This document shows positions 10,018-36,615 of a stretch of 64,000 bases of DNA, one piece after another. The translations under genes were made by a program, and so were the position numbers. Source of the DNA: Ancylobacter crimeensis (GTDB lineage: Bacteria; Pseudomonadota; Alphaproteobacteria; Rhizobiales; Xanthobacteraceae); NCBI RefSeq assembly GCF_023016805.1, contig NZ_JALKCH010000006.1:62001-126000 (forward strand), given 5' to 3'. Numbering within the stretch: the first letter of the stretch is position 1; the number at the start of each line of letters is the position of its first letter. The notes beneath the pieces were generated by a model. It saw only the letters and a program-made list of their open reading frames with translations, was not told the origin of the DNA and searched no databases.

Positions 10018-10032
10018 CACGCCCTCACAGAT

Positions 10033-14254: not shown

Positions 14255-15028
14255 GCTTTCGTACCCCCCGGGGATGCGCATGCTCCACATGGATCAAGCC
14301 ATCGAAGGCCCAGGACCGTGTGGATATTCATGTCGCAATTATGCTTATCCGGAAACCAGCAGGAGGCTTCCGACCTTACCAAATTACTGAGCGTCTGCCG
14401 CCAACCGCATACGCGGAACACGAGACAGGACAGGCGGGTCCGCAACTTCGTAGTAGGACCCTAACCAACTCGACGCGAAAATGTTCCGATAATTAAAACG
14501 AAAATGCAACTAATTTTTTCGAGGACATTGCTGAAGGGAATGAGCCCACATGTTCATACCCTGCCGAAACGCTCTGCACGGAAGAGAGGGTCGCGTCTGA
14601 CGCGACGACCCCCAGTTGGGTCCGGACCCGAGGACGGGATGGACCATCCAGATGCACCCTTTGGCGAATAATCAGGCAGCGGAGCCTAATCATTTGGCGG
14701 TGGGCGACTCACATCTCGCTCACAAATTATGAGCGATATTTCCACTTTATAAATCCAGATCCGCATCGACTTTTGAAAAATTTGATTTTCGAAATATATC
14801 AGAATGAATGATTGACAGCCACTCAATTCGCTTGCGGCATCATCCGAAAGATATCGCCGTCCCACACCCTTCGGATTATTTCGAAGGCCACATTTCATCC
14901 ATAAGACGTGGAATATTTCTCATGGAGGAATGGTTTTTACTTTCGTGAAATTGTATGGGCGCCTGGAATAACCGTGCCCCTTGGGCAACACCGTTCGGCT
15001 CAATGCCGCACGGAAACGGGCAATCAGG
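14255..15028. other. Intergenic region, partly AT-rich
   Basis: About 770 bases with no supported gene. The stretch 14480-14530 and especially 14690-14960 is clearly more AT-rich than the rest of the window. The first part should hold the promoter of the LuxR-type gene. The second lies beyond the end of the hydrolase gene and may hold a terminator or foreign DNA. No hairpin with a T-run is obvious. Confidence 0.5.
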
Positions 15029-16192
15029 CTACCACGCGAGCGTGTGCAGACGCTCCACCCCGGACGGCAGGACACTCTCGTCCAGGCAGCCCGCATCCTT
15101 CCGGCCATCATCCGCCTGGTCATGCAGATGACGGCCGAAGAAAGCGGCCAGGCAGGAATCGGCCAACGCCTTGGTGCGGATCGGGTCAACCCGAAACCAG
15201 GTGCGCCAGTATGCGGGTGCCGCAGCGAGGTCGGACAAGTTTTCGTGAACCGTGCGCGGAAAGCGGATGGCGAGGCTCTCCGGCCGTTCGATGAGGCGGC
15301 GCTCCTCGATGAGATCGCGACGGGTCAGCCGTGCCTCGTAGCGCCGCTCCGGCACCGGATCGTCGAGCACGGGATCCGCCGGAAAGGGGAAGTCGCTCAG
15401 CATCAGCAGATAGGGCACCGCGACGCCCCCGCGCGCCGCCATGCCGAACAGCCAGCCGTCGAGATTGGCGACGGCGACGATGCGCGGGTCGCCGATGCTG
15501 GCTTCCGCGGCCGTCGAGCCGCCGAACGACCAGCCGAAGGCGCCTACGCGATCGAGCGGCAGGCCGGCCAGCCATGCCGGCGCATCCGGCTGCCGTTGCA
15601 GAGCGGCGAGGCGGTCCAGCACGCTCGACAGCCGCGCCGCCTGCAGCGCGACCTTCACGTCGCCGTCCCCGAGCGTCGCCTCATAGGCCGAGCCCGAGCT
15701 GAAATCGAACGCCAGCGGCCGCATTCCGCTCTGCGCGAGTTCCGGCGCCTGCTCGATGTCGTCCAGCGCCACCACGACGAAACCCCGCGCGGCGAGATCC
15801 GCCGCCGTCGCAGCGTTGTCGCGGCGGGTCTTGCCCGAGCCGGGGGTGTAGAGCAGCAGACGGCGCTCCCGCCGGCCGGCGGCGGCCGAATGCCAGACAT
15901 CCACGGTGATGAAGGGGGTCGATCGCGACGTTCCATCATCCGGCAGGCGAAGCGTCTCGTGGAGGATGTCGCGGGGGCCGGCGACGGCCCGGCGGGCCTG
16001 CGAGAGCAGCGTGGCGGCGAAGGTGGCGATCGGCCGCCCCGCCTGCCCGCTCACGCGCCAGCTCTCCGGCCGGCCAATTCCGGCAAGGCCCAGCGCGGCG
16101 AGGGCCAACCCGGAAAAGGCGAGGATCGCGACCAGCACCGCAAGCACGATCGCGGACCGCCATCGGCCTTGCCGTTGCCGGCCCGCGGGCAT
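15029..16192 (-). CDS. Membrane-anchored alpha/beta hydrolase (PAF-acetylhydrolase/dienelactone-hydrolase-like)
   Basis: A 387-residue protein whose ATG lies seven bases after the stop of the C-PCP-TE gene, so it is the last gene of the NRPS-PKS operon. One transmembrane helix (about residues 13-38) puts the catalytic domain in the periplasm. The nucleophile elbow is 'GWSFGGS' (Ser near 222); 'ANLDGW' supplies a candidate Asp and 'HENLSD' a candidate His. The fold resembles bacterial PAF-acetylhydrolase-like esterases. It could trim or deacylate the product, act on polysaccharide esters, or give self-protection; context cannot choose. The family level is confident, the substrate unknown. Confidence 0.75.
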   Translation of the reverse strand: MPAGRQRQGRWRSAIVLAVLVAILAFSGLALAALGLAGIGRPESWRVSGQAGRPIATFAATLLSQARRAVAGPRDILHETLRLPDDGTSRSTPFITVDVWHSAAAGRRERRLLLYTPGSGKTRRDNAATAADLAARGFVVVALDDIEQAPELAQSGMRPLAFDFSSGSAYEATLGDGDVKVALQAARLSSVLDRLAALQRQPDAPAWLAGLPLDRVGAFGWSFGGSTAAEASIGDPRIVAVANLDGWLFGMAARGGVAVPYLLMLSDFPFPADPVLDDPVPERRYEARLTRRDLIEERRLIERPESLAIRFPRTVHENLSDLAAAPAYWRTWFRVDPIRTKALADSCLAAFFGRHLHDQADDGRKDAGCLDESVLPSGVERLHTLAW

Positions 16193-16199
16193 CGCCCGC

Positions 16200-18866
16200 T
16201 CACTCGGCCGCCAATTGGGGCGAGCGCGGCTTCCTTGCCGGGATCTGCCGGAGCAGCGGTTGCAGATGCGCCGCGATGATCCGCGCGCCCTCGCCCTGGA
16301 ACATGTCGGCGTGCCAGCCCGGTATCGCGTAGGATTTCGGAACCTGCGGCAGCAGGGGAGACCATCCCATGTCTTCCCCGAGATCGGCGGTGATCATCTC
16401 CTCGCTGCGCAGCAGCACGATCGGCGCCTTGATCGGACGGGGCCGGTAGGCGTTGCGGGCGCGCTCCAGCGTCGCCAGGAACCAGCGGTTCCCCCAGTCC
16501 TCCTGGTTGTAGGCGCGGTCCTCGATCATCCCGACCCGGCCGGCGAGCCGGAGAACGCCGGTGCGGCGGATGCTCGGATAGGTCGCCAGCACGTCGGCGA
16601 GCCCGGTCTCGCGCGCCGAAAGGCGCGCCATGTGCCGCTTCAGCATGTGCCAGCGATAGGCGCGCTGGAACCGGGCGCGCCGGGGCGCGGGCAGGTCGGC
16701 GATGAAGCCCGGCCGCCAGGTATCGGCCAGCACGACGAGGGAGACGACCTCCCCCGCTTCCTCGAGCTGCCGCGCCGCCTCATAGGCCAGCGCGCCGGCC
16801 ACGCACAGGCCGAACAGCACATAGGGCCCGTGCGGACGGGCGGCGCGGATCAGCGCGACATAGTCGGTGGCGAAGGCCTCGAGCGGACGCTCCTCGATCA
16901 CGCGCGGGCTGTTGGGGTCGAAGAGCTGCACCCCGATGAAGGGATGCGCCGTCCCGATGGCGAGCGCGACATTGCGATAGGCCAGCGTGTTGTTGATGGC
17001 GATGATCGGCACGTCCTGCCCTTCGGGCTGGATCCGCACCACGTTCCAGCTCTCGATCCGGGGCGGGGCGTCGCGACCGGCCGCGGCGGGCAGGCCCGCC
17101 TGCGCCGCATCCGCGCGCGCCGCATCCGCGCGCGCCGCATCTGCGCTCGCCTCGTCCGCCTGGGCCCCTTCCGTCAAGCCATCGATATGGGCGGCGAGCT
17201 GGCCGAGGGTCGGCGCCTCGAACAGGGTCAGCGGGTCGATACGGTGGCCGAAATGCTCGCGCACCCGCGACAGCATGCGGATCGCCAGCAGCGAATGGCC
17301 GCCCAGCGCGAAGAAATCGGCATCGGCCTTCGGCTCCGCGACACCGAGCACATCGCGCCAGATGGCGGCCAGCGCCTGCTCGGTCGCCGGGCTGGCGACG
17401 CGCGCGGGGACCGCGGATGCCGCGCCGGGATGACCGGCGGCCGCCGGCTTCACCTCGCGCGGCGGCACCGGTTTGCGTTCGGGCGCTACCAGGCTTTCCA
17501 GCGCGAAGTCGGGCTCCAGGGTGGCCCGCTGCATGGTCGCGTGCCACAGCGCGAGAAAGGCGCGCCCGGTCTCCTCGCTGAAGATGTCGGGGTTGTATTC
17601 CATCGCCATGCGCCAGCCATCCGGCCAGCGCACGACGAAGAAGTTGAGGTCGTAGAGCGAGCCCGCCGAAACCGAGGGCACGCCATCCAGATGGAAGGGG
17701 CCATAGCTCCTGGCGTCGAGCGCGCCCTTGAGCATGGTAAAGTTCACCGAGATCAGCGGGGTGCGGGCCGGATCGCGCGGGGGATTGAGCAGTTCCACCA
17801 GCCGATGGAAGGGCATGGCCTGATGCACCAGCCCTTCGCGCACCGTGTCGTTGGTCCGCGCCAGCAGCTCGGAAAAGCGCGTCACATGCCGCGTATCGAC
17901 CCGCAGCACGACATTGTTGATGAAGACGCCGACGAGGTTCTCCAGATCCGCGTCGTCGCGCCCCGCCACCTGCGTGCCGATGGTGATGTCGCGCCAGCCG
18001 CTCACGCAGCGGAGCATGGCGACGGTCGCCGCGCAGCCGAGCGCGAAGGGCGTGACGCCGAGCCGGCGCGCGGTCTCCTCCATCCGGCCGCCCATCTCGG
18101 GCGAGAGCATTTCGGCAAGGATGATGCCGCGATGCGAGGGTCGGTCGGGCTTGGGGAAGTCGCCGGGCACTTCGAAATAGGGCGCGTGGACCAGCTGATC
18201 GTACCAGTAGCGCTCATGCCGGGGCGCCTCGACCGCGAGATATTCCTTCTGCCAACGGGCATAGTCGCCATATTGCAGCGGCAGCTCGGGCAGCTCCGGG
18301 GCACGCCCCTCCTCGATGGCGGCGAGGCATTCGCCGAATTCGTTGGCCATCACCCGGATCGACCAGCCGTCGAACACGATCTGGTGCACGGTGAGGAGAA
18401 TGTTCACCCGGTCGTCGGCCATGCGCAACAGGGTGATGCGGGTCAGCGGCAGGGCATAGAGGTCGAAGGGAAGGTGCGATTCCCGTTCGGCGAGCTGCCG
18501 CGCGGTCTGGGCCCGGCTCTCGGGCGGCAGGTGCCGCAGGTCGACGACGTCGAGCGTGAGGGTCAGCTCGGGCACCACCTCCTGCATCGGCTCGCCGTCG
18601 ACGTCCACGAAGCGGGTGCGGAGCGCCTCGTGGCGCGCCACGATCATATTGAACGCCTGTTCGATCGCCTCGTCCCGAACCGGCCCGGTGAGATCCCAGC
18701 GCAGCGCCACGTTGAGGGCGGCGCTGCCGGGGTCCAGCGCATTGATGAACCAGCAGCGCTGCTGCGACGACGAACACGGAAAACGGAGCAGATCTTGCGA
18801 CCCGCTCTCCGGCACGTCCGGTACGAAGGCCTGGGTGGCGTCCGTCTTCATGGCCGTTTCATTCAT
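16200..18866 (-). CDS. NRPS termination protein: condensation, carrier and thioesterase domains (C-PCP-TE)
   Basis: About 888 residues from the ATG at 18866; a TTG at 18896 would overlap the previous stop and add ten. Domains: condensation (about 20-440), peptidyl carrier ('GGHSLLAIR', Ser near 518), a repetitive Ala/Asp linker (about 575-600) and a type I thioesterase (about 610-870). Three points stand out. There is no adenylation domain, so nothing in this protein can load its carrier. The condensation motif reads HQIVFDG near residue 160, with Gln where the catalytic second His of HHxxxDG belongs. The thioesterase nucleophile is Cys ('GLCVAG', near 683), with Asp in 'LADTW' and His in 'GWHADMF' near 850. 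It receives the chain from the large PKS-NRPS protein and releases it; whether it also adds a residue is doubtful. Confidence 0.88.
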   Translation of the reverse strand: MNETAMKTDATQAFVPDVPESGSQDLLRFPCSSSQQRCWFINALDPGSAALNVALRWDLTGPVRDEAIEQAFNMIVARHEALRTRFVDVDGEPMQEVVPELTLTLDVVDLRHLPPESRAQTARQLAERESHLPFDLYALPLTRITLLRMADDRVNILLTVHQIVFDGWSIRVMANEFGECLAAIEEGRAPELPELPLQYGDYARWQKEYLAVEAPRHERYWYDQLVHAPYFEVPGDFPKPDRPSHRGIILAEMLSPEMGGRMEETARRLGVTPFALGCAATVAMLRCVSGWRDITIGTQVAGRDDADLENLVGVFINNVVLRVDTRHVTRFSELLARTNDTVREGLVHQAMPFHRLVELLNPPRDPARTPLISVNFTMLKGALDARSYGPFHLDGVPSVSAGSLYDLNFFVVRWPDGWRMAMEYNPDIFSEETGRAFLALWHATMQRATLEPDFALESLVAPERKPVPPREVKPAAAGHPGAASAVPARVASPATEQALAAIWRDVLGVAEPKADADFFALGGHSLLAIRMLSRVREHFGHRIDPLTLFEAPTLGQLAAHIDGLTEGAQADEASADAARADAARADAAQAGLPAAAGRDAPPRIESWNVVRIQPEGQDVPIIAINNTLAYRNVALAIGTAHPFIGVQLFDPNSPRVIEERPLEAFATDYVALIRAARPHGPYVLFGLCVAGALAYEAARQLEEAGEVVSLVVLADTWRPGFIADLPAPRRARFQRAYRWHMLKRHMARLSARETGLADVLATYPSIRRTGVLRLAGRVGMIEDRAYNQEDWGNRWFLATLERARNAYRPRPIKAPIVLLRSEEMITADLGEDMGWSPLLPQVPKSYAIPGWHADMFQGEGARIIAAHLQPLLRQIPARKPRSPQLAAE
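17101..17145. repeat. Three tandem 15-base units inside the C-PCP-TE gene
   Basis: Three units of 15 bases, each close to CGCGCCGCATCCGCG, encode an Ala-Asp-Ala-Ala-Arg repeat in the linker between carrier and thioesterase. Because the unit is five codons, gain or loss by slippage would keep the frame and only change linker length. Confidence 0.8.
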
Positions 18867-18892
18867 GATGTCAGCCCCCCACGGCCCGACGA

Positions 18893-21800
18893 TCAATTTG
18901 CCTCGCCGATGGCGCGCCCGGCGCTGCGGCGGAAGCTGCTGAGCCTCGGTGCCGCCGTCACGCCGCTGCGCGCGATCTCCTCGGCAGCACGGGCGAGGCC
19001 GGCGATGGTAGGATGTTGCATGACGTGCCGGGCTTCAAGGCCCAGTCCGTTGCTCAACATGCGCGCGGCGATCTTGAACAGCTGGATCGAGTCGGCCCCG
19101 AGCTCGAACAGGTCGTCCTCGACGCCGACCTCGCGAAGCTGCAGCACCTCGCACCAGATGTCCGCCAGCTTCTGCTCCATGGCGTTACGCGGGCGCAGCA
19201 CGGTACGCTCGGCCGCTACCGCCGTCCATTCCGGCCGCGGCAGGGCCTTGCGGTCGAGCTTGCGGTTCAGGGTCTGGGGAAGCGCGTCAAGCTTCATCCA
19301 GAGCGCCGGACGCATGTAGTCCGGCAGAAGTTGCCCGACATGGCGCTGCAGCGCGGCCGGCAGGCCTTCCGCGCCGAGCCCTTCGACATCCGGTGCCGCG
19401 ACATAGTAGCCGACGAGGCGCGCCGCCTCGCCTTCGCCCACCAGTGCCACCGCCGCGGCGGCGACGCCGGGGCACCCGCGCGCTGCGGATTCGATGTCCT
19501 CCAGCTCGATGCGGAACCCGTGCAGCTTGATCTGCAGGTCGCGCCGGCCGAGATGCTGGATGCGCCCGTCCGGCAGCCGCCGGGCGAGATCGCCAGTGTG
19601 GTAGAACCGCGCCGCCGCGCCGGTACCCGGCTGCTCGGTGCGGAACGTCGCCTCGGTGAGCGCGGGCTGGTGGAAATAGCCCTTCGCCAGTCCCATGCCC
19701 CCGATCACCAATTCGCCCGCGACCCCGAGCGACGCGACATGGCCGCTGGCGTCGACAACATGGAGCTGCGTGTTCTGGATCGGCTCGCCGATGGTGACCG
19801 GACCGGTGCCCGGCTGCACGCGCCCGGCGCTCGACCAGATCGTGGTCTCCGTAGGGCCATAGACGTTCCACAGCTCGCCGGCCCCGCCCGAGAGCTGGTC
19901 GGCGAGGTCGCGCGGCAGCGGTTCGCCGCCACACAGCATGACGAGGCCTTGATAGGGCCGGAAACCGGTTTCCAGCAGCATGCGCCACAGCGAAGGCGTC
20001 GCCTGGATGTGGGTCGGCCGTTCGGCGTCGATCAGGTCCTTCAGGCCGAAACCGCTGCGCACCGCGTCGCGGTCGGCGATGATGACCGTGCCGCCGGTCA
20101 CGAGCGGCAGGAACAGCTCCAGCAGCGCAATATCGAACGACACGGTGGTGACGGCCAGCAGCGTCTGGCCGGCGCGGAAGCCCGGCTTTTCCGCGAAGGA
20201 CCACAACAGGTTCGACAGCGCCGCATGACTGATCTCGACGCCCTTCGGCACCCCGGTCGAACCCGAAGTGAAGATGACATAGGCGCTGTCCTCCGGCCGC
20301 ACCCGCACCGGCGCAGGCTCGGCCGCCGCCTGCGGGCCGGCCACCGGCACCGCGACCGAGAGATCGACCAGCGGAAGGCCCGGCACCAGATCGGCGGCGC
20401 GGGGATCGTCGCTTACCAGCGCATCGAGCTCGGCCGTGCGGGTGACGAGACCGAGCCGCGTCTCCGGGTGCTCGGGGTCGAGCGGGACGAAGGCGTGCCC
20501 GGCCTTCACGATGGCGACGAGGCCCGCCACCAGATCGGCGGAGCGCTTCATCAGGATACCGACGCGGCCGCCGGGCTGCGGTACCAGCTTCTGCAGCCGG
20601 GCCGCCAGCACGTCGGAGGCCGCATCGAGCTCGGCATAGGAGAGCGAGCGTTCGTGCCAGCGCACCGCCACCGCCTCGGGCGTACGCGCCGCCTGCGCGC
20701 GGACGAGGTCCGGCAGAGGCGTGAGGTCGACGTCCACAGCCGTCGCGTTGAGGGTTTCTGTGATCCAGCGAAGGCTCACCGCGTCGAAGATCGGGAGCTC
20801 GCGGACCGGACGGCCGGCGTCCTCGACCAGGGCGCGCAGCACCTGCTCGAAATGGCCGAGCCAGCGGGCGACGGTGCTCTCGTCGAACAGATCGGTGCTG
20901 TAGTCGCAATCGAGACGGAGCCCGTCGGGCCCTTCGATCACATTGAGGAAGATGTCGAAATTGGTGAACGCCTTGGCGTTCGGCGTCACGGCGGCCTCGA
21001 CCTCGCCGAAGCGCAGCCTGTCGCCGAGCCGCTCGAGGTTGAACTGCACCTGCGTCAACGGCAGGCGCGCGCGGTTGCGCGGCAGCGTGAGTTCGCGCAC
21101 CAGCGTGCCGAAGGTAAAGTTCTGGTGCTCGTTGAGCTCCACCATCGCCTTCTGCACGGTCTTGAGCAGGCCGCCGGCCGGCGCATCCGCCTCGATGAGC
21201 GTGCGCAGCGGCAGGAAGTTCACGCAGTGCCCGACCAGCGGGCCGCCCTCCGCCAGGCTCTGCCCGGCGGTCGGGATCGCCACCACCTGATCGGATTGCC
21301 CGGTCAGCCGCCACGTCACGATCTGGAACGCGGTGGCGAGCGTGGTGAACAGTGTGGCGCCTTGCCTGGCTCCGGCCTTCTTCACCGCGCGGGCGAGATC
21401 GGCGTCGATCTGCGAACGGTAGGTCGCGCCGCGAAAGCTCTTCATCGCCTCGCGCGGCCGGTCGGACGGCAGCTCGGCATCCGGCGGCAGGGTGTCGAAG
21501 CGCTTGAGCCAATAGGTGCGATCAGCCGTGCCGCTGCCGGCGAGGGCCGCTACGTCGGCGGCATAACGGCGGAACGGCAGCGGCGTGTCGAGAGCTGGGG
21601 CCGCCTGACCGTAGTGCCGCGCCATCTCGTCGAGGATTATGTTCATCGACCAGCCGTCGCAGACGATGTGATGGCCGGTCAGCACCAGCACATGAGACGC
21701 CGGCGACAGCGTCGCCAGCGCCGCGCGCAGCAGCGGGCCGCGCACCAGGTCGAAGGGGGTGGCGGCGTCGTTCCTCAGGATCGCGGCAAGCTCGCCTTCC

Positions 21801-24800
21801 GGGTCGGGCACGCCGGACAGGTCGATCGCCTGCAACGGCACATCGAGCGTGTCCTCGACGATAAAGGTCTCGCCCCCGGCATCGAACCGGCCGCGCAGGG
21901 CGTCGTGCCGTGCCACCACCGCATTGAGGGCGCGCCCGAGCGCTTCGGCGTCGATGGCGCCGTCGAGACGCACGCTCACCGATTCATTGAAGGCGCAGGA
22001 GGCTTCCGGGCCGATCTGCGCCGCCAGCCAGATCTCGCGTTGCGGTTCGGTGGGCGCGATGGCGCGAGGCAAGGGAGCGGAAACGGGAGCCGCCGGGGCC
22101 GCGGCGTGGGCCGGTGCGACCGGCGCAGCCGCGCCCGCGCCCTTCGCGCCGGGGAGGATGCCGACCTCCTGCAACGCATCGAGGCTCTCGCCGAAGATGC
22201 GCACCACCTCGTCGATTTCCTCCGGCCCGTGGCAGGTGGTGAGGAATTTGGGAAAGCCGTCCTGAATGTGCAGGCCGAGCGAGCGGGCCTGCGGGAAGAA
22301 CAGCGAGCCGAAGCGGTCTTCCTCGTGGAAATTCAGGTAGAACCAGCTCGAATAGGTTTCGGCGCGCGTGGCGATGCCACGGCGTTCCAGATCCGCATTG
22401 ATGCGCCCGACCAAACCGGCGGTGCGCGCGGCAAGACCCTGCTGGAGCGCGGGGCCAGCCGCCTTCAGATGCAGCAGCACGGCGCGGGCAGCGGCGAGGG
22501 CCATCGGGTGGCGCACGAAGGTGCCGGCGAAGAAGGTCGGCGCCACCTCCGGCACTGACTCGTCGCCATAGCGCCACTGGCCGCCGTCGAGCGCGTCCAT
22601 GAAGCGGGCCTTGCCAGCGAGCACGCCGATCGGCAGGCCGCCGCCGATCACCTTGCCGTAGGTGGCGAGGTCGGCGCGGATGCCAAGCACCGCCTGCATG
22701 CCGCCCGGATGGGTGCGGAAGCCGGTCACCACCTCGTCCATGACGAAGGCGGTGCCCGCTTCCTCGGTGATGGCGCGCAGCTCGCGCAGAAAATCGACCG
22801 GAACGAGGCCGGGATGGCGGCTCTGCACCGGCTCGGTGATGACGCAGGCGATGCTGTCCGCATTCGCACGGATCCAGGACAGGCTGTCCGGCGAGGCGAA
22901 GGGGAGCACCACCATGTTGCCGACCGAGCCGGTCGGGATTCCCGGCGCCACCGGCAGCGCGCGCGGCGGCGCGGTAAGGCTGCCGCCCTTCACCAGCACC
23001 TCGTCGAACTGGCCGTGATAGCCACCGCCGAACAGCACGACGCGGTTGCGACCGGTAACCGTGCGGGCGACGCGCATCGCCGCCATCACCGCTTCCGAAC
23101 CGGTGTTGCAGAAGGTCACGCGCTCATTGCCGGTGAGCTCGCGCACCAGATCCGCCACCTCCCCGGCGAGCGGGGATTGCGGGCCGATGGCGAAGCCTTC
23201 GGCCATCTGCGCCGCGACGGCCTCCAGAACGAAGTCCGGTGCATGACCGAAGGCGGTCTGGCCGTAGCCGTTCACGAGGTCGACATAGGCATTGCCGTCC
23301 ACGTCCCAGATCCGCGAACCCTTGGAGCGGGCGCAGACGACGGGGAACACGAGTTCCTTCCACTCCGCGCGGAAGCCGGCGGCCGCACGCGGATCGGCCA
23401 GCACGCCGCGATGCTGCTGGGTGTAGGCCTTCGAGCCGGCGGCGCGGGCGCTGAAGCGCGTCTCCAGATCGGCGATGAAGGCCTTCTGCCGGTCGGTGAG
23501 CGGCACGGGGGCGGACTTTGCCGCGCGATAGACCTGGAAGCGCAGCGGCTGTTCGCCGGAATCGGCAGGGGCTTCAGAGGCGAGCGCGGCGGGGGCAGGA
23601 ACCGCAGGCGGAACCGACACCGCGGGCGGAACCGACACGGCGGCTGGAGCGGGTGCCACGGCCGGGACCGCCGCTGCCACCGCTTCCGCAGGCAGAAGGA
23701 CGGCGGGAGCGCCCTGCAGGGCGGCGATCTGCTGGTTGATGACCTGCTGCATCGCCCCGAGCTGGAGACGGAACAGATCGGCCATCCCGCCGGCACCGCC
23801 AGGCACGGCATGCGCCGCTGCGAAGGGAACGGGCGCTCCTGCGAGAAGAACGGGCGCGGCCGGCGCCGCGGGGACCGGCGCAGAGACCGGGGGCACCGCT
23901 GCCACCGGGGTCGCATCCTCCGCGGGCTCCGGCATCTGCGCGACGAGGTGGCAGGCGAGATCCGCGATGGTCGGCAGGTCGGCGAGCAGCTGGCGGAAGG
24001 TGACCGGTACCTTGAAGCTCTGCTGCACCCGCGTCGCTACCTGCGCAAGGAACAGCGAATCGAAGCCCAGTTCGAGGAAGGAGGTATGGCGCTCGCCAGC
24101 CGGAATGGTTTCACCGGACAGGTCTTCCAGCACCGCAACAAGGTCGGTTTCCACCGCGGCGGCGCGTGCCGCGCCTCGGCTCTGGGCCTGCGGGGCAATC
24201 TGTTCGGCAATGGTGGCCATCGAAGGAGTTCCCGTCTCGAAAAGGGGAGCAGATGAATCAGGTGTGGCGCTGCCGGAAATCGCGTCATGCAACGGCTGTG
24301 GCTGCGGGGTCGAAGCAATCGGAGTCTGTGATGCAGGCGGGGGCGGCTCGATCCAGTGCCGCTCGCGCTGGAAGCGATAGGTCGGCAGCGACACCCGGCG
24401 GCAGCCGGGCCCGGTGAGGACGGCCCAGTCCGGGGCGACGCCGCGGACCCAGAGCGCGGCGACGGCTTCGCGCAGCGTGAGGGCCTCCTCGCCGGGCGTG
24501 CCGAAGGTCTGGATCACGCCGGCATAATCGTCCTTCGCCAGCGTCTGCCGGGCGAAGGTCGTGAGCACGCGGCCGGGCCCGATTTCGACCAGCAGCGGCT
24601 GGCCGAGCGCGGCGATGGCGTCCAGCGCCTGGCTGAACCGCACCGGGGAGCGGCATTGCCGGCCCCAATAGGTGGGCTCCGGCGCCGAACCGGCGTCGAT
24701 CCAGGTGCCGGTGACGCACGACAGGAAGGGAATGGCCGGCGCCTGCGCCGGCAGCGCGGCAAAGCACGCCGTCAGCGGCTCGGCCACGGGCTCCATCATC

Positions 24801-27016
24801 GCTGAATGGAAGGCGTGCGAGGTCCGCAGCCGCTGGGTCGCGATCCCTCGGCCGTCCAGCAGCGCCTGCAGCGCGTCGATGCCGGCATGTTCGCCGGCCG
24901 CGACGGTCTGCCGACGGCCGTTCACCGCGGCGATGGTGACCCCTGCGGGCAGCAGCGGCTCCAGTTCCTCGACCGCCAGCCGCACCGAGAGCATGGAGCC
25001 GGCGGGCTGGGCATGGATGAGCTGCGCGCGCCGGGCAATGGCGCGGGCAGCATCCTCGAAGCGGTAAACGCCGGCGAGCGTCGCCGCCACCAGTTCGCCG
25101 AGGCTGTGGCCCGCCATGGCGTCGGGCCGGATGCCCCACTCCATCAGCAGGCGGGCGGTGGCGTATTCGATCAGGAACAGCGCCGGTTGGGTGTTCAGGG
25201 TGACGTCGAGCGCACCGGTGTCCGGCCCGGAGGGAAACAGCACCTCACGGATGTCGGTGCCGGTGACCTCCGCGACGCAGGCGGCGCCGCGATCGACGAT
25301 GTCGCGGAACAGCGGTTCGCTCTCGTAGAGCCCGCGCCCCATCCCGACCGCCTGCGCGCCCTGGCCGGGGAACAGGAAGACGATGGGCCGCTTCTCCTCG
25401 ACCCGACCCGCGGCGGGCGCCGCCCGCAGCTTGGCCGCCAGCTCCTCATGCGAACGCGCGACCACGGCGGCGCGATGGTCGAAGCCCCGGCGGCCGGCGG
25501 CGAGCGTGTGCGCGATGTCCTCCAGTCGCTGCTCGGGATGGGCCAGCGCATGGTCGGCAAGCGCCGCCGCGGCCTCGCCAAGCGCGGCCGGCGTGCGGGC
25601 GGAAAGCGGGAACAGCAGAGCCCGGCCCTCGCCGCGCGCGGCACGGATGGCGGCGCGCGGGGCTTCCTCCATCACCACATGGACGTTCGTGCCGCCGACG
25701 CCGAAGGCACTGGTGCCGGTGCGCCGCGGCGTCGGGCCGGCAGGCCATTGCCGCGCTTCGGCGCTGATGAAGAACGGGCTGGCGGCGAGATCGATCTCGG
25801 GGTTGGCGCGCTCGAAATGCAGCTGCGGCGGGATCTCGCCATGGTGCAGCACCAGCGCGGTCTTGATGAGCCCGGTGACGCCGGCGGCGGCGTCGAGATG
25901 GCCGACATTCGCCTTCACCGAACCCAGCGCGCAGGTGCCGTTGACATCGCTCGTCGCGCGAAAGGCCTTGAGGAGCCCGGTGAACTCGATCGGGTCGCCG
26001 AGCGAGGTCGCCGTGCCGTGCGCCTCGACATAGCCCACGGTGTCGGCGGTGATGCCGGCGAGCTGGTGCGCGGTGGCGATGGCGCGGGCCTGCCATTCCG
26101 GGCTCGGCGAGGTGAAGCCGACCTTGCCGGCGCCGTCATTGTTGACGCCGCAGCCGCGGATGACCGCATAGACCTGATCGCCGTCATTGAGCGCGTCTTC
26201 CAGCCGGCGCAGCACCACGAGGCCGGCGCCGCTGCCGAACACGGTGCCGCCGGCGGCCGCGTCGAAGGGACGGCAACGCCCGTCCGGCGAGACCATGCCG
26301 CCTTCCTGGTGCATGTAGCCGCGCTGCTGCGGGAAGGAGATGGAGGCCCCGCCCGCCAGCGCCATGTCGCACTGATAGGTCTGGAGACTCTGCACCGCCT
26401 GCGACACCGCCAGCAGCGAGGTCGAGCAGGCGCTCGCCAGCGTCATCGCCGGGCCGTGCAGGCCGAGCTTGTAGGCGATGCGGGTGGCGACGAAATCGTG
26501 GCCGGCGCCGACCAGAAGCGGATATTGCCCGACCTGGAACTCGTCGGTGAAACCCTCGATGATGCGCCGGTTGGCAAGGACGTGGCGCAGAAAATAGGTG
26601 TTCATCGAGCAGCCGGCGAAGACGCCGATCAGCCCCTCGAACGCCGCCGGGTCATGGCCGGCATCCTCCAGCCCCTCCCATGCGCATTCCAGCAGCACGC
26701 GCTGCTGGGGGTCCGTCAGCGCGCTCTCGCGGGCGTGCATACCGAAGAAGGGCGCGTCGAATCGATCGACGTCGGTCAAAATGGGCCGGGCCGCGACATA
26801 GTTCGGATCCCGGTGCACCTCCGCGCCGAACGTGTCCTCGATCTGATCGGGACCGAAGGCGGAGATGCTGTCCACGCCGGCCCGGATGTTCTCCCAGAAC
26901 TGGCGCACCGAAGGGGCGCCGGGGAAACGCCCGGCCATGCCCACGATGGCGACGGCGCCGAGGTCCAGCAATGCGCGCAGTGACTCGTCGGGCTGGTCGA
27001 AGCTGTGCATGTTCAT
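18893..27016 (-). CDS. Hybrid PKS-NRPS: KS-AT-ACP-aminotransferase-C-A-PCP
   Basis: 2,707 residues. Ketosynthase 20-450 (Cys near 197 in 'SACSTSL', His in 'EAHGTATS' and 'NVGHLD'); acyltransferase 540-860 with 'GHSLGE' near 635 and 'HAFHS' near 733, the malonyl-CoA signature; ACP 'LGFDSL' near 982; Ala/Pro-rich linker 1005-1160; class III PLP aminotransferase 1165-1620 (Lys in 'YGKVIGGG' near 1450), like the amination domain of the mycosubtilin/iturin synthetases; condensation domain with intact 'HHIVCDG' near 1779; adenylation domain ('TSGSTGVPKG' near 2250, 'NVYGPTETT' near 2380); carrier 'LGADSIQL' near 2635. No ketoreductase, dehydratase or enoylreductase exists, which fits amination of the beta-keto group. 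My reading of the A-domain code is D-I-L-Q-M-C-V-I-W-K, nearest to glycine-type codes but uncertain. The start overlaps the A-PCP stop (ATGA). Confidence 0.93.
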   Translation of the reverse strand: MNMHSFDQPDESLRALLDLGAVAIVGMAGRFPGAPSVRQFWENIRAGVDSISAFGPDQIEDTFGAEVHRDPNYVAARPILTDVDRFDAPFFGMHARESALTDPQQRVLLECAWEGLEDAGHDPAAFEGLIGVFAGCSMNTYFLRHVLANRRIIEGFTDEFQVGQYPLLVGAGHDFVATRIAYKLGLHGPAMTLASACSTSLLAVSQAVQSLQTYQCDMALAGGASISFPQQRGYMHQEGGMVSPDGRCRPFDAAAGGTVFGSGAGLVVLRRLEDALNDGDQVYAVIRGCGVNNDGAGKVGFTSPSPEWQARAIATAHQLAGITADTVGYVEAHGTATSLGDPIEFTGLLKAFRATSDVNGTCALGSVKANVGHLDAAAGVTGLIKTALVLHHGEIPPQLHFERANPEIDLAASPFFISAEARQWPAGPTPRRTGTSAFGVGGTNVHVVMEEAPRAAIRAARGEGRALLFPLSARTPAALGEAAAALADHALAHPEQRLEDIAHTLAAGRRGFDHRAAVVARSHEELAAKLRAAPAAGRVEEKRPIVFLFPGQGAQAVGMGRGLYESEPLFRDIVDRGAACVAEVTGTDIREVLFPSGPDTGALDVTLNTQPALFLIEYATARLLMEWGIRPDAMAGHSLGELVAATLAGVYRFEDAARAIARRAQLIHAQPAGSMLSVRLAVEELEPLLPAGVTIAAVNGRRQTVAAGEHAGIDALQALLDGRGIATQRLRTSHAFHSAMMEPVAEPLTACFAALPAQAPAIPFLSCVTGTWIDAGSAPEPTYWGRQCRSPVRFSQALDAIAALGQPLLVEIGPGRVLTTFARQTLAKDDYAGVIQTFGTPGEEALTLREAVAALWVRGVAPDWAVLTGPGCRRVSLPTYRFQRERHWIEPPPPASQTPIASTPQPQPLHDAISGSATPDSSAPLFETGTPSMATIAEQIAPQAQSRGAARAAAVETDLVAVLEDLSGETIPAGERHTSFLELGFDSLFLAQVATRVQQSFKVPVTFRQLLADLPTIADLACHLVAQMPEPAEDATPVAAVPPVSAPVPAAPAAPVLLAGAPVPFAAAHAVPGGAGGMADLFRLQLGAMQQVINQQIAALQGAPAVLLPAEAVAAAVPAVAPAPAAVSVPPAVSVPPAVPAPAALASEAPADSGEQPLRFQVYRAAKSAPVPLTDRQKAFIADLETRFSARAAGSKAYTQQHRGVLADPRAAAGFRAEWKELVFPVVCARSKGSRIWDVDGNAYVDLVNGYGQTAFGHAPDFVLEAVAAQMAEGFAIGPQSPLAGEVADLVRELTGNERVTFCNTGSEAVMAAMRVARTVTGRNRVVLFGGGYHGQFDEVLVKGGSLTAPPRALPVAPGIPTGSVGNMVVLPFASPDSLSWIRANADSIACVITEPVQSRHPGLVPVDFLRELRAITEEAGTAFVMDEVVTGFRTHPGGMQAVLGIRADLATYGKVIGGGLPIGVLAGKARFMDALDGGQWRYGDESVPEVAPTFFAGTFVRHPMALAAARAVLLHLKAAGPALQQGLAARTAGLVGRINADLERRGIATRAETYSSWFYLNFHEEDRFGSLFFPQARSLGLHIQDGFPKFLTTCHGPEEIDEVVRIFGESLDALQEVGILPGAKGAGAAAPVAPAHAAAPAAPVSAPLPRAIAPTEPQREIWLAAQIGPEASCAFNESVSVRLDGAIDAEALGRALNAVVARHDALRGRFDAGGETFIVEDTLDVPLQAIDLSGVPDPEGELAAILRNDAATPFDLVRGPLLRAALATLSPASHVLVLTGHHIVCDGWSMNIILDEMARHYGQAAPALDTPLPFRRYAADVAALAGSGTADRTYWLKRFDTLPPDAELPSDRPREAMKSFRGATYRSQIDADLARAVKKAGARQGATLFTTLATAFQIVTWRLTGQSDQVVAIPTAGQSLAEGGPLVGHCVNFLPLRTLIEADAPAGGLLKTVQKAMVELNEHQNFTFGTLVRELTLPRNRARLPLTQVQFNLERLGDRLRFGEVEAAVTPNAKAFTNFDIFLNVIEGPDGLRLDCDYSTDLFDESTVARWLGHFEQVLRALVEDAGRPVRELPIFDAVSLRWITETLNATAVDVDLTPLPDLVRAQAARTPEAVAVRWHERSLSYAELDAASDVLAARLQKLVPQPGGRVGILMKRSADLVAGLVAIVKAGHAFVPLDPEHPETRLGLVTRTAELDALVSDDPRAADLVPGLPLVDLSVAVPVAGPQAAAEPAPVRVRPEDSAYVIFTSGSTGVPKGVEISHAALSNLLWSFAEKPGFRAGQTLLAVTTVSFDIALLELFLPLVTGGTVIIADRDAVRSGFGLKDLIDAERPTHIQATPSLWRMLLETGFRPYQGLVMLCGGEPLPRDLADQLSGGAGELWNVYGPTETTIWSSAGRVQPGTGPVTIGEPIQNTQLHVVDASGHVASLGVAGELVIGGMGLAKGYFHQPALTEATFRTEQPGTGAAARFYHTGDLARRLPDGRIQHLGRRDLQIKLHGFRIELEDIESAARGCPGVAAAAVALVGEGEAARLVGYYVAAPDVEGLGAEGLPAALQRHVGQLLPDYMRPALWMKLDALPQTLNRKLDRKALPRPEWTAVAAERTVLRPRNAMEQKLADIWCEVLQLREVGVEDDLFELGADSIQLFKIAARMLSNGLGLEARHVMQHPTIAGLARAAEEIARSGVTAAPRLSSFRRSAGRAIGEAN
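23607..23638. repeat. Direct repeat in the ACP-aminotransferase linker
   Basis: The 14-base sequence GGCGGAACCGACAC occurs at 23607-23620 and again at 23625-23638 (period 18), giving a repeated Val-Ser-Val-Pro-Pro-Ala peptide. It lies in a low-complexity linker and is most simply a slippage product. Confidence 0.7.
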
Positions 27017-28932
27017 GGCGTCCTCCCGAGCCGGTTGTCGCGCATGCGCCTGAGCGCCGCCTGGCGGGAATCGGCCCGGGTGGCCAGGTCGCCGCCGAGG
27101 ACGCCGCCAAAGTCGCCGCCGCGATCGCCGGCGAGGCGCTCCCCGGCACCTGCGCCGGGATCGAGCCGTGCCGCGAGGCTGGCGACGGTCGGGTGATCGA
27201 AGAGCTCCACCAGGCGGAGCGGCGTACCGGCGATCTCGCCGAGTCGGGCGTGGATGTTCATCAGCCGTAGCGAGGTACCGCCGAGTTCGAAGAAGTTCAC
27301 GTCGCGCGGCACATGGGTCAGGCCAAGCACCTCACCCCACAGCCGGGCGAGCCGGGCCTCGATGCCGGACATCGCCTGCGCGGCAGCCGCGGATACGTCG
27401 GGGGTTTCGACCTCCGGCGTTTCGGCGAGGCCGACAAGTGCCTTCCGGTCGGTCTTGCCGTTCGCGGTCAGGGGCAGCTCGTCGATCAGGCGGAAACCGG
27501 AGGGCACCATATAGGCCGGCAGCGAACGACGCAGGCGCTCCGTCAGCGCGGATGCCAGCGTCTCCCGTGCCGCCGGCATGGCCGGCTTCACGAAGGCGAC
27601 GAGGCGACGACCCGCCGCGGGACTGCCGCAGGCGACGATCGCGGCGTCGGCGACCTCGGGCTCCCGGCGCAGCGCGCTCTCGATCTCCTCGATCTCGACC
27701 CGGTTGCCGTCGATCTTGACCTGCTGGTCCAGTCGCCCGAGAAACTCGAAGGTACCGCCGGGCCGGCACCGTGCGAGATCGCCGGTGAGATAGAGCCGCT
27801 CGCCGACGGAGGGGACCACGCGGAACTTCTCCGCCGTCAGCTCCGGCGCATTGAGGTAACCGAGCGCCAGCCCCGCGCCGCCGACGCAAAGCTGCCCGGC
27901 CTCTCCCGCCGGGACCGGATGGAAATCCTGGTCGAGGACATAGGCCGTGCTATGGGCGATGGGCCGGCCGATCGGCAGTGCGCCGCCCTCGATCCGGTCG
28001 ATGATGTGGCAGCAGGAAAAGGTGGTGTTCTCGGTCGGGCCGTAGCCGTTGACGAAGGTGCAGTGAGGCAGCGCGGCGCGGGCGCGGGCGATGTGAGCCG
28101 GCGAAACGACGTCGCCGCCGGTGAGAATACGGCGCAGCGGGCGCAGGCCCTCGAGCCGCTGGTCGACCAGCAGATGGAACAGCCCAGCCGTGAACCACGC
28201 CGTCGACACGCCATAGGCGGCGATCGCGGCCACGATGTCGTCGAGCGCCGGCTTCGCCGCCGGCACCACGCCGAGGCTGCCGCCATTGAGCAGCGCGCCC
28301 CAGATCTCGAAGGTGCTGGCATCGAAGGCAAGCGGTGCGAGATGAAGGATCACCTCGTCCGGCGCGAAGCGGGCATAGGTCTGCCCGCTCACCAGCCGGG
28401 CGATGGCCCGATGCGGCACCACCACGCCCTTTGGGCGCCCGGTCGAGCCGGACGTGTACATCACATAGGCCGGGTCCTCGCCCGATACGCATTCGGGCAA
28501 CACCTCGGCCGACAGCGCGGCGGAGGCGTCACGGGCCCCGGCGAGATCGACGAACCGCTCGCCGGCCGCCTGCGCGATGCCGGGCGAGAGCTCCGCATGC
28601 CCGACAACCAGCACGGGCGCGGCGTCGCCCAGCATGTGGGCAAGGCGCTCGGCCGGGTAGGCCGGGTCCAGCGGAACGAACACCGCGCCGACCTTGAGGA
28701 TGGCGAGGATGGCGAGGATGGCATCGGCCGAACGCCCGGTCAGCAACGCCACGCGATCGCCGGCACCGACATCGCGCTCCAGCAGATAACGGGCAAGTTG
28801 ATTGGAGCGGAAATCGAGATCCGCATAGGTAAGGCGCAGCCCGCCTTCTCTTATTGACGTAGCGTTAGGTGCCGAATGAACCTGCCGGGCAAAAAGTCCA
28901 TGAACGGTCATATTTTGTCTGAAATAAAACAT
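27013..28932 (-). CDS. NRPS loading protein: adenylation and carrier domains (A-PCP)
   Basis: About 639 residues from the ATG at 28932 (GGA six bases upstream); a GTG at 29010 would add 26 residues and an ATG at 28911 would remove seven. The adenylation domain has 'YTSGSTGRPKG' near residue 158, 'FDASTFEIW' and 'NGYGPTENT'. My hand alignment to GrsA gives the specificity code D-A-F-W-L-G-G-T-F-K, one change from the well-known valine code DAFWIGGTFK, so valine or another branched residue is likely. The carrier motif is 'LGGTSLRL' near 548. With no condensation domain before or after it, and an ATGA overlap with the ketosynthase gene, it is the starter module that hands an aminoacyl group to the ketosynthase. 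It is the first gene of the NRPS-PKS operon. Confidence 0.9.
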   Translation of the reverse strand: MFYFRQNMTVHGLFARQVHSAPNATSIREGGLRLTYADLDFRSNQLARYLLERDVGAGDRVALLTGRSADAILAILAILKVGAVFVPLDPAYPAERLAHMLGDAAPVLVVGHAELSPGIAQAAGERFVDLAGARDASAALSAEVLPECVSGEDPAYVMYTSGSTGRPKGVVVPHRAIARLVSGQTYARFAPDEVILHLAPLAFDASTFEIWGALLNGGSLGVVPAAKPALDDIVAAIAAYGVSTAWFTAGLFHLLVDQRLEGLRPLRRILTGGDVVSPAHIARARAALPHCTFVNGYGPTENTTFSCCHIIDRIEGGALPIGRPIAHSTAYVLDQDFHPVPAGEAGQLCVGGAGLALGYLNAPELTAEKFRVVPSVGERLYLTGDLARCRPGGTFEFLGRLDQQVKIDGNRVEIEEIESALRREPEVADAAIVACGSPAAGRRLVAFVKPAMPAARETLASALTERLRRSLPAYMVPSGFRLIDELPLTANGKTDRKALVGLAETPEVETPDVSAAAAQAMSGIEARLARLWGEVLGLTHVPRDVNFFELGGTSLRLMNIHARLGEIAGTPLRLVELFDHPTVASLAARLDPGAGAGERLAGDRGGDFGGVLGGDLATRADSRQAALRRMRDNRLGRTP

Positions 28933-29492
28933 ATCAAATCCATGGCAACGAAATGTACTTCCGGTAATCTCCTTCACGACTGGCCGCACGGGGAAAGAGC
29001 ACCCGGCCACGACCTCATGGTCCGCGACCGATGCCCAACTTGCATCCTCGGAAAACGTCGAGTTGGCTACGCCTTTCAGCCAGTTTCCGATGATCGGAAG
29101 GATAAGTCTGCCGACCCCCCTACCTCCTCGCTATCCTTCGGTATGGATTTCGGCCCCACGCCGCGAAAACGGGGAAGGCGCAACCTGTCTCCTCGCCGTT
29201 AGGTCAACTTGTCACAGTCTTCCGCAGCGATATGCGAAGCGCCACCGCCCGGGCCGGACCCTCCACCCTTCGGCGGATCGGCCTTCGGGCACGCGAAATC
29301 ATCTCCCGGCCAACGAACATCTTCACGCAGAAGGGATCGGGCGCGTATCCGGCTTCGATTGCGATGCCGACCTGTCGGGGCGCATGTTGCCGTCGGCGGC
29401 CGCCCGGCTTTCCGGCATGCGCCCTTCCCCCGACCTGTCGCGCCCACCGAGAGCGACGCAGGATGATCCCGCAGCCGCGGATGGAGACCAGC
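28933..29492. other. Divergent promoter region
   Basis: About 560 bases between the first gene of the NRPS-PKS operon (minus) and the glycoside hydrolase gene (plus). The part next to the NRPS start is AT-richer and should hold its promoter. A plus-strand frame runs through 29232-29492 in phase with the hydrolase, but its Arg/Pro-rich composition does not look like protein. I see no RNA or repeat. Confidence 0.5.
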
Positions 29493-30515
29493 ATGCACGG
29501 CCTGTTGCTTCGACTTGTCGTCGCGCTGCTGGTTCTGGGCTCCCTCGGCCGGGTGGCGCTGGCTGAAATGCTGTGGGGCGTCAACGGTCATCCGCTGGTT
29601 TCCTACACCGGAGTGACGATCGACGAGCAGATGGACCTGATCCAGCATCTGGGCCTGCGCTCCTACCGCGTCGACGTCACGACCATCGACCAAGTCGACC
29701 GCCTGGCCGCTCTCGTCGAGGCCGGGCGCAAGCGCGGCGTCTCCATCCTGCCGGTTCTGGTCGCCTCCGACGATCTCGACACCACCGACGAGACGACGCT
29801 GCATCGCGACGCTTTCGCCTTCGCCTCCGCCCTTGCGCGCCGCTTTGCCTCCACCATCGACGTGTGGGAGCTCGGCAACGAAATGGAGAACTATGCGCTG
29901 CTCGAGCCCTGCGAGATGCGCGACGACGGAACGACCTATCCCTGCGAATGGGGCACCGCCGGGGGCATGGGTCCGCTCGACTATTACGGCCCGCGCTACA
30001 AGAAGATCGCGGCCGTGCTGCGCGGCCTCTCGGAAGGCGTGAAGGAGGGCAACCCGGCGGCCCGCCGCGCCATCGGCTCGGCAGGGTGGGGCCATCTCGG
30101 CATCTTCGACCGCTACCATGCCGACGGCATCGAATGGGACATTTCGGTCTGGCACATGTACGGCCAGGATCCCGAACCCGCCTTCCAGCGTCTCGCCGCC
30201 TTCGGCAAGCCGATCTGGGTGACGGAATTCAACCATCCCTTCGACAGCACGCAGAACGAGGCCGACCGCGAGGCCGGGCAAGCCAAGGGCATCGTCCACT
30301 GGATGGAACGCCTGAAGGCGCTGAGCGCGACCTATCGCGTCGAGGCCGCGCAGATCTACGAGCTGTTCGACGAGGCTTACTGGGCCCCCAATCCGGAAGC
30401 CCATATGGGGCTCTACCGCCTGACGCCACGCCCCGATGACGGGGGTTGGGCTCCCGACGCACCCAAGCCGGCATTCCATGCCGTGCAACAGTTTCTGGCG
30501 TCCGGAAACCGCTGA
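29493..30515 (+). CDS. Secreted clan GH-A glycoside hydrolase
   Basis: A 340-residue protein from the ATG at 29493, eight bases after GGAG; the frame is open further upstream but the signal peptide (residues 1-24, ending 'GRVALAE') starts here. A TIM-barrel hydrolase of clan GH-A is indicated by 'WELGNE' (Glu130, acid/base after the conserved Asn) and 'WVTEFNHP' (Glu245, nucleophile), with 'VWHMYG' before it. GH39- or GH5-like families are the closest in style. It sits at the edge of the exopolysaccharide genes, and trimming or degrading the exported polymer is the natural inference. The exact family cannot be fixed by eye. Confidence 0.8.
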   Translation: MHGLLLRLVVALLVLGSLGRVALAEMLWGVNGHPLVSYTGVTIDEQMDLIQHLGLRSYRVDVTTIDQVDRLAALVEAGRKRGVSILPVLVASDDLDTTDETTLHRDAFAFASALARRFASTIDVWELGNEMENYALLEPCEMRDDGTTYPCEWGTAGGMGPLDYYGPRYKKIAAVLRGLSEGVKEGNPAARRAIGSAGWGHLGIFDRYHADGIEWDISVWHMYGQDPEPAFQRLAAFGKPIWVTEFNHPFDSTQNEADREAGQAKGIVHWMERLKALSATYRVEAAQIYELFDEAYWAPNPEAHMGLYRLTPRPDDGGWAPDAPKPAFHAVQQFLASGNR

Positions 30516-30815: not shown

Positions 30816-31517
30816 ATGGACGCGGACATCAACCTTAACGCATTTGCCCTCGTAAAGGGCGGCCATCTCGGCTCCCAGCGTCAGCCTTCCATGAACAATG
30901 ATTGCGTTGGCGGTGGTGGAAAGCGTTTCATGGATCTGACGCTTGCCACGATCGGCCTGCTTTTCCTGTCGATTCTGATGATCGTCATCGCAGCGCTCAT
31001 CCGCTGCACCATGGGTGGCCCGGCGATCTTCCGTCATGTTCGCGTGGGTCATGGCGGCATTCCGTTCGAGTGCCTGAAGTTCCGCACCATGGTCGTGGAC
31101 AGCGAGGCTGTGCTTGCACGGCACCTCGCCGCCGACCCCGCAGCCGCGGAGGAATGGCAGCGTACCCGCAAGCTGAAGAAGGACCCCCGCGTCACCTGGC
31201 TCGGCCGGGCGCTGCGGACGTCGAGCCTTGACGAGTTGCCCCAGCTCATCAACATCATCAAGGGTGACATGAGCTGTGTCGGCCCCCGTCCTATCATCGC
31301 GGACGAGCTGGAGCTCTATGGCACCGATGCCGCCAAATACCTCGCCGCCCGTCCGGGTCTGACCGGGCTGTGGCAGGTCAGCGGGCGCAGCACCCTCAGC
31401 TATGCCGAGCGCGTCGCGCTCGATGCGGAATATGTGAACGCCTGGTCGATCTGGTCGGATGTCGAGATCATGGCCCGCACCGTGCCGGCCATGCTCAAGT
31501 CACACCAGACATCCTGA
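30816..31517 (+). CDS. Initiating sugar (glycosyl-1-phosphate) transferase, ExoY-like
   Basis: A 233-residue protein with one hydrophobic N-terminal segment (about 42-62) and the compact catalytic domain of the WbaP/ExoY family, which transfers a sugar phosphate from a UDP-sugar to undecaprenyl phosphate on the inner face of the membrane. Diagnostic motifs: 'KFRTM', 'SLDELPQLINIIKGDMS', 'GPRP' and 'PGLTGLWQVSGRS'. The length matches rhizobial ExoY (about 226 residues) rather than the longer WbaP forms. It starts repeat-unit assembly for the polymer exported by the surrounding genes. A second Met at residue 26 is an alternative start. Confidence 0.92.
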   Translation: MDADINLNAFALVKGGHLGSQRQPSMNNDCVGGGGKRFMDLTLATIGLLFLSILMIVIAALIRCTMGGPAIFRHVRVGHGGIPFECLKFRTMVVDSEAVLARHLAADPAAAEEWQRTRKLKKDPRVTWLGRALRTSSLDELPQLINIIKGDMSCVGPRPIIADELELYGTDAAKYLAARPGLTGLWQVSGRSTLSYAERVALDAEYVNAWSIWSDVEIMARTVPAMLKSHQTS

Positions 31518-33420: not shown

Positions 33421-33680
33421 TCGCAACCGACGCGCGAAAAGCCGGAAGACTATCCGTTTTGGCTACGCCTTTCGGGTGAAGCGGCGTTCGACAGGCACTG
33501 TTTTCGGCTTCTAGGTGGAGGCCGGCACGCGATCGAACCCCGATGTGGCGGCACATGGCTGCTAGACTGCAGGGATCGGCCCTGTCTCCCGCAGCGGCTG
33601 CATGGGGCAGGTGCAATCCGCTCTTCATGGGCGGCCTGCCCGCCGAAGGCGCTCATCCGGGTACGAGACGCGAGGACTTC

Positions 33681-36354: not shown

Positions 36355-36615
36355 GCAACCTCGCGCAAGCCGGAGCGTACGGAACCCCGGCGCTGGATCC
36401 TTGCCCCATTCTGGTCCCAGCCCGCGTCCCCTCCGGCAACGCATTGCGGCCGCTGGGGCAGGAAAAGCGGTAGCAGTGCTGACGCAAGGGAGAAGGCAGG
36501 TCACTTTTGGTCATGCAACCCCACCTTAGGCGTGCGCCACCCCGAGGCAAACGGGTGGGAGAATGAGGTGCCGGCAAATCCTGCCGCGCAAGCATATTTT
36601 GGCTGGATCATCGCT

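Follow-up and report, generated by a model that had tools for sequence, protein, structure and literature searches.

In the synthetases for iturin and mycosubtilin (MycA/ItuA), which make lipopeptides, an aminotransferase (AMT) domain stands after an acyl carrier protein (ACP) and is followed by condensation, adenylation and peptidyl carrier protein domains (C-A-PCP), and the starter is a fatty acid. Statine-forming hybrids of nonribosomal peptide synthetase (NRPS) and polyketide synthase (PKS), such as that for thalassospiramide, extend an aminoacyl group by one malonate, reduce the 3-keto group and include a module that lacks an A domain. An amino-acid loading module directly before ketosynthase (KS), acyltransferase (AT), ACP and aminotransferase has also been listed: Table 2 of a 2013 study (PMC3870968) gives A-CP-KS-AT-CP-PLP1 stretches (CP, carrier protein) in Pedobacter heparinus C6XWU5, Thiorhodococcus drewsii G2E5C9 and Salinisphaera F7QBN5, and our comparison is with this table listing. 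For the Pedobacter protein the predicted monomers are Nrp-Mal-Gly-Pk, the accessible part of that paper holding software predictions only (PMC3870968). Here we describe a three-gene assembly line of related layout in a stretch of 64,000 nucleotides from Ancylobacter crimeensis (assembly GCF_023016805.1, contig NZ_JALKCH010000006.1, positions 62,001 to 126,000), hereafter the window.

The line sits within a Wzx/Wzy-dependent exopolysaccharide (EPS) locus at about 10.7-41.7 kb, with EPS genes on both sides. Like other loci of this type, it holds a sugar transferase, Wzx, a Wzy-like protein, glycosyltransferases (GTs), Wzc and Wza; unlike them, it contains a complete assembly line. Directly visible in the sequences are the anatomy, its conservation and the linkage to EPS genes. 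The evidence tilts modestly towards a line that makes an acyl decoration, predicted as (3,4-diaminoacyl)-glycyl groups, for the exopolysaccharide of the surrounding locus. We regard as evenly balanced the broader proposal of a widespread alphaproteobacterial system whose line produces vicinal 3,4-diaminoacyl-glycyl groups, their side chain being interchangeable, and whose degenerate terminal module transfers them to EPS. An original prediction from the sequence had put forward the 3,4-diamino acid chemistry, which our analysis supports, and had missed both the EPS context and the unusual terminal module.

Domain anatomy of the assembly line

The assembly line is real as laid out. Pfam matching recovers the order that had been predicted, A-PCP, then KS-AT-ACP-AMT-C-A-PCP, then C-PCP-TE (TE, thioesterase), with all genes on the minus strand:

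27013-29010, minus: gene 1, A-PCP starter protein (Pfam; A about 27454-28893, PCP about 27163-27354; Val-like code DAFWLGGTFK)
18893-27016, minus: gene 2, KS-AT-ACP-AMT-C-A-PCP protein of 2707 amino acids (Pfam; catalytic motifs kept across 65 full-length family proteins)
25811-26953, minus: KS domain (Pfam; active site ACSTS)
24527-25381, minus: AT domain (Pfam; motifs GHSLG and HAFH)
23927-24130, approximate borders, minus: ACP (GFDSL; Pfam finds two PP-binding stretches in the gene 2 protein)
22151-23494, approximate borders, minus: AMT, a class III pyridoxal phosphate (PLP) aminotransferase (Pfam; Lys in YGKVIGGG)
20786-22051, minus: condensation domain C2 (Pfam; HHIVCDG)
19259-20701, minus: adenylation domain A2 (Pfam; Gly-like code DILQLGVIWK)
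18986-19174, minus: PCP2 (Pfam)
16200-18896, minus: gene 3, C-PCP-TE terminal module without an A domain (Pfam)
17490-18779, minus: condensation domain C3 (Pfam; HQIVFDG in place of HHxxxDG)
17184-17378, minus: PCP3 (Pfam; GGHSL)
16242-17054, minus: TE domain (nucleophile motif GLCVAG; alignment columns suggest Cys698, Asp725 and His862 as the likely triad)

Every one of these domains lies above its Pfam cut-off, most by a wide margin, the weakest being the AMP-binding_C match of the second A domain (25.5 against a cut-off of 24.5 bits). As in a hybrid NRPS-PKS, A, PCP, KS, AT, ACP, C and TE follow in order with their active-site residues, the exception being the second His of C3, which is Gln. 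The expected lack of reductive domains is borne out, Pfam matching no ketoreductase, dehydratase or enoylreductase in the three genes, and so is the coupling of the first two genes, which overlap as ATGA. Genes 2 and 3 meet at TTGA, an alternative ATG for gene 3 lying ten codons downstream, at about 18866.

Predicted substrates and chemistry

Substrate codes of the A domains were read by alignment as DAFWLGGTFK in gene 1 (A1) and DILQLGVIWK in A2. The former is given as a Val code for MlcM in the accessible part of PMC9113097, in support of the Val-like, amino-acid starter proposed earlier. The A2 code differs in one residue from DILQLGMIWK, given in the accessible part of PMC12283262 for four Gly-activating domains bearing a MOX insert. 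This favours the suggestion that the starter-derived unit is joined to another residue, here probably Gly. The closest A2 core in the PDB is AB3403 (4zxh), with 8 of the 9 code positions covered by the alignment in common; we take AB3403 to be Gly-binding. The AT carries GHSLG and HAFH, the latter presumably a mark of the malonyl type, consistent with the malonyl-type AT expected.

The arrangement of KS and ACP, then a MycA-type class III AMT, then a C domain is that of an iturin-type beta-aminating module. Among PDB entries the AMT is matched best by subunit A of mycosubtilin synthase (6kfm, 400 bits, about 453 residues), in keeping with the kinship predicted for it, and it is 43-44% identical to the AMT of a Bacillus amyloliquefaciens synthetase judged iturin-type by its gene set. 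The two systems differ in three respects. In place of a fatty-acyl starter brought in by an acyl ligase, the window has an A-PCP whose code points to an amino acid; its AT is in cis, whereas in the Bacillus locus fabD is a separate gene and no AT was matched; and it lies in an EPS locus rather than a lipopeptide locus. With the thalassospiramide line it shares the extension of an aminoacyl group by one malonate and a module without an A domain, but where that line reduces the 3-keto group the window has an aminotransferase.

From these features, A1 would load Val on PCP1, as its code suggests, and the KS would take the valyl group through one malonate extension to 4-amino-5-methyl-3-oxohexanoyl-ACP, as the domains and the A-PCP-KS fusions of relatives (below) imply. 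By homology to the mycosubtilin enzyme, the AMT would then aminate the 3-oxo group to give 3,4-diamino-5-methylhexanoyl-ACP, and C2 and A2 would add Gly, as the A2 code indicates. One malonate extension followed by beta-transamination to a 3,4-diamino acid, as first proposed, is the best reading of the line and a likely one, with support from the AT, the AMT, the starter code and the A-PCP-KS fusions.

Fixed and variable parts among relatives

At least 59 family loci were found in a scan of genome contigs, besides plasmid loci from a plasmid search, from whose matches 16 loci were examined and 12 of these put in the family. Which loci counted as family and which as controls was judged by eye, on taxonomy, coverage and identity. 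Some of the loci, plasmid loci among them, come from one species, and the relatives are not independent samples. Among the matches listed, members belong to Rhizobiales, Rhodobacterales, one metagenome-assembled genome (MAG) each of Hyphomonadaceae and Caulobacterales, and unplaced alphaproteobacterial MAGs; no relative of the line was found in viral contigs. The layout, for which no described pathway had been known to the original prediction, is less isolated than it appeared, given these genome loci and the stretches in the 2013 table (PMC3870968, as listed there). In the open-licence literature no title or abstract opening among the matches listed describes the family, which does not establish its absence from print, and the accessible parts of PMC9354803 and PMC5563371 do not describe it.

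Throughout the 65 full-length gene 2 proteins the KS Cys and first His, the AT HAFH and the PLP Lys of the AMT are kept. A2 is Gly-like in 64 of the 65, with DILQLGMIWK in 56, and the exception is the Aliiroseovarius plasmid locus L039. The A1-type domains, 67 in 66 loci (one being the second A domain of L039), have 33 different codes, one of them incomplete. The leading Asp of an A-domain code binds the alpha-amino group, and because all 67 codes begin with Asp an alpha-amino acid starter is predicted throughout the family. Mean identity is 46% for A1, 58% for A2, 66% for KS and 69% for AMT. With a variable A1 code and little change elsewhere, the family apparently retains a single chemistry and varies the side chain, which, as judged from the codes, seems to be lineage-specific.

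Two arrangements depart from this pattern. In L039, which is an EPS locus, both A domains have the code DALWLGGTFK and are 52% identical to each other, and a Ser-type TE is fused at the protein end. Two Variovorax plasmids, outside the family (L025 and L044), carry a related line with an AMT, an A domain standing before the KS in L025; two TIGR04325 methyltransferases follow the line and a 2OG-Fe(II) oxygenase gene lies ahead of it.

Priming of the ketosynthase

That the A-PCP primes the KS is supported most strongly by fusions: in 11 of the 65 full-length gene 2 proteins, the window's being one of the 65, an A-PCP precedes the KS in a single chain, and all 11 have the A-domain core motifs and the PCP Ser. 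A twelfth candidate, L052, was left out of this count, its reading frame merely extending upstream over a separate A-PCP gene. Where the genes are separate, genes 1 and 2 overlap by four bases in 44 of 53 loci. The KS might instead start from an acyl chain, as it does in iturin lines, with the separate A-PCP acting later, for example on PCP3. The AMT is indeed of mycosubtilin type, most members (55 loci) have the A-PCP as a protein of its own, and the closest non-family KS compared, from Agrobacterium vitis (54%), is at the start of its protein. We nevertheless set acyl priming aside as highly improbable: besides the fusions and the overlaps, which speak against it, the window KS is 51% identical to the KS of Variovorax L025, which follows an in-frame A domain, against 40% for the Bacillus iturin-type KS, and none of the seven annotated family loci names an acyl ligase.

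Association with exopolysaccharide genes

For the linkage counts, an EPS core gene was Wzx, Wza, Wzc, sugar transferase, pyruvyl transferase or GH16. At least one such gene stands beside 57 of the 59 family genome loci, and two or more types beside 49, despite differing gene orders. Within the first 10-kb flanks 16 of the 59 had none; 14 of these were extended upstream and, with every edge checked, all 14 then proved positive, the other two (L072 and L092) being on short, unextended contigs of 9.1 and 16.5 kb. EPS genes are likewise present at each of the 12 plasmid loci assigned to the family. EPS core genes were found at none of eight other NRPS loci of the genus and family (20-kb flanks, one side 6.7 kb), six of which are apparently one orthologous cluster by size. 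Nor were any found at 21 other loci matched by the same scan, a comparison weakened in that these controls are mostly from Cyanobacteria, Myxobacteria and other distant groups, where the EPS reference set is less sensitive, and include several short contigs. Gene 3 is present in four of 30 genus genomes, and those four are also the ones that carry a Wzx of at least 69% identity; one other genome has a Wzx at 41%. Because these genomes are interrelated, no probability is given. Chance proximity of the line to EPS genes is unlikely in view of the linkage, the controls and the co-occurrence of gene 3 and Wzx.

A role of the line in exopolysaccharide is likely on the basis of this linkage, and from the line's place inside the EPS gene set, here and in nearly all relatives, the product may be attached to the polymer and not released as a free compound. 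We think it unlikely, if worth keeping in view, that the product is instead a free small molecule, such as an aminostatine-like protease inhibitor or a signal, merely coded and regulated together with the EPS genes. Statine units are protease-inhibitor motifs, the anatomy is that of a typical assembly line ending in a TE, and no attachment enzyme was identified. Against a free product stand the linkage at 57 of 59 loci through different gene orders, the presence of line and Wzx in the same four of 30 genus genomes, and the absence of such linkage from all 29 other NRPS loci tested.

The terminal module and release

Gene 3 has neither an A domain in cis nor an HHxxxDG motif in its C domain, and as such is not a canonical terminal NRPS module. 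Among 71 aligned relatives the C3 motif begins HQ, as in the window, in 61 and HH in 10, while at least 63 of 65 C2 domains have HH. The spacer between C3 and PCP3 is 107-145 residues in 39 of the 71 and 19-44 in the remainder, and the long form matches a C-terminal A-domain part in four of five tested, one above the Pfam cut-off. This relic of an A domain, present in some relatives and gone in others, fits a loss of function, and we read the module, on its sequence features, as one that has lost elongation and been kept for chain transfer and release. C3 does not look like a decaying domain, since it is as conserved as the others (mean identity 59%, against 55% for C2 and 36% for TE).

Alternatively, A1, A2 or some enzyme elsewhere could load PCP3 in trans, so that C3 still condenses and the product gains a further residue. 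Such loading of modules without an A domain occurs in the syringomycin and thalassospiramide lines, and the PCP3 Ser is kept in all 71 relatives, of which the 10 with HH in C3 would suit it. C domains also tolerate altered motifs, according to the accessible part of PMC8097023. We consider this route improbable in view of HQ in 61 of 71, the A-domain relic present in some relatives and lost in others, and the lack, with the reference set used, of any conspicuous extra A-domain gene among the family loci.

Having no A domain, a module kept for transfer and release would add no residue in the usual way. In what is the least certain step, C3 and PCP3 would take the chain and the Cys-type TE would pass it on, the acceptor being an amine or hydroxyl group on a sugar or on a lipid-linked repeat unit, and the decorated unit would leave by Wzx, Wzy and Wza. 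In all 70 relatives whose TE is intact (that of L072 is broken) the nucleophile is Cys, and 52 of the 70 have a His in the usual column. The closest solved TE is that of AB3403 (4zxh). ObiF of obafluorin likewise has a Cys-type TE with a GxCxG nucleophile, but the Asp conserved 27 residues past the Cys in the family is at a shifted position in ObiF (accessible part of PMC6668435). No beta-lactone is expected from the window's line because no beta-hydroxy group is predicted.

Several points weigh against a decoration passed to the polymer by this module. No polysaccharide structure of this kind was found, and the failure to identify an attachment enzyme, counted above for a free product, belongs here as well. 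The gene after the TE varies by lineage, being a PAF-AH-like hydrolase, a GINT1_N protein or an S15-type hydrolase. The usual-column His of the TE is absent in 18 of 70 (16 allowing a one-column shift in two), mostly Rhodobacterales, and release may therefore differ in those 18. The role of the central C-domain His is debated, altered C motifs being commoner with a small acceptor (accessible part of PMC8097023), and HQ need not mean a dead C domain. L039, likewise in an EPS locus, has neither C3 nor PCP3, its second A domain is Val-like and its TE is of Ser type, and thus not every member needs the odd terminal module. Variovorax L025 and L044 have no EPS core gene in the flank examined, nor do Burkholderia L045 and A. 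vitis L026. The locus in the window itself lacks a gene for a phosphopantetheinyl transferase; the genome has two PF01648 genes at other places. Finally, linkage can reflect shared regulation or shared ancestry.

Other genes of the locus and its surroundings

The remaining genes of the EPS locus are as follows:

10774-12660, plus: Wzc-like Wzz/tyrosine autokinase (Wzz, AAA_31)
13454-14290, minus: LuxR/NarL-type regulator (PF00196; homologues in several relatives' loci)
15029-16192, minus: alpha/beta hydrolase adjoining gene 3 (weak PF03403, E 0.001, below cut-off; hydrophobic N-terminus)
29232-30515, plus: glycosyl hydrolase (PF11790)
30816-31517, plus: initiating bacterial sugar transferase (PF02397, 205.6 bits)
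31888-33420, plus: probable Wzy polymerase, multi-spanning (8 hydrophobic segments only, no Pfam match)
33543-35186, plus: Wzx flippase (PF13440, 183 bits)
35188-36504 (minus), 36532-37779 (plus) and 37883-39262 (minus): GT4 glycosyltransferases
39274-40317, plus: GT2 glycosyltransferase
40394-41743, plus: Wza-like polysaccharide export protein (PF02563, SLBB)

Sugar transferase, Wzx, Wzc and Wza, together with a Wzy recognised from hydrophobic segments only, make up a Wzx/Wzy-dependent set. Adjacent homologues of the hydrolase at 15029-16192 are conserved in related genera. The gap 14290-15029, in which related Ancylobacter loci carry a phosphopantetheinyl transferase, has no open frame for one in the window.

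A different gene follows the TE in many Rhizobiales (12999-14600 of L054), with a homologue in 41 of the 59 loci and none matched in the window. Its product is modelled as a GINT1_N/GH43/GH117-like propeller after a formyltransferase-like N-terminal part; what we take to be the formyltransferase motif, HxSLLP, is seemingly absent from the family consensus. We did not adopt this protein as the attachment enzyme, as it is carbohydrate-related but names no transfer step.

Outside the EPS genes, a 2082-residue open frame at 3772-10020 has no Pfam match at E 0.001 and carries His-rich motifs, presumably like those of multicopper oxidases. The region 41871-46156 has two acetamidase/formamidase matches in opposite directions, one frame also matching an AraC-type DNA-binding domain. 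At 47367-49461 carbon-nitrogen hydrolase and peptidyl-arginine deiminase-like genes lie side by side, a pair that we take to resemble agmatine-to-putrescine pairs.

Significance

If the predicted chemistry holds, the line would be a natural source of 3,4-diamino acids that resemble aminostatine. If the proposal is correct, assembly-line chemistry, usually seen as making free metabolites, would also build parts of cell-surface polymers, and genome surveys in which clusters of this kind figure as unknown metabolites would be directing attention to the wrong fraction, to the medium and not the polymer. The exopolysaccharides of soil, marine and nodule bacteria would then bear positively charged vicinal diamines, with consequences for adhesion, metal binding and host contact, and these assembly-line-made cationic groups would differ by lineage, including those encoded by plasmid copies in root-nodule bacteria.

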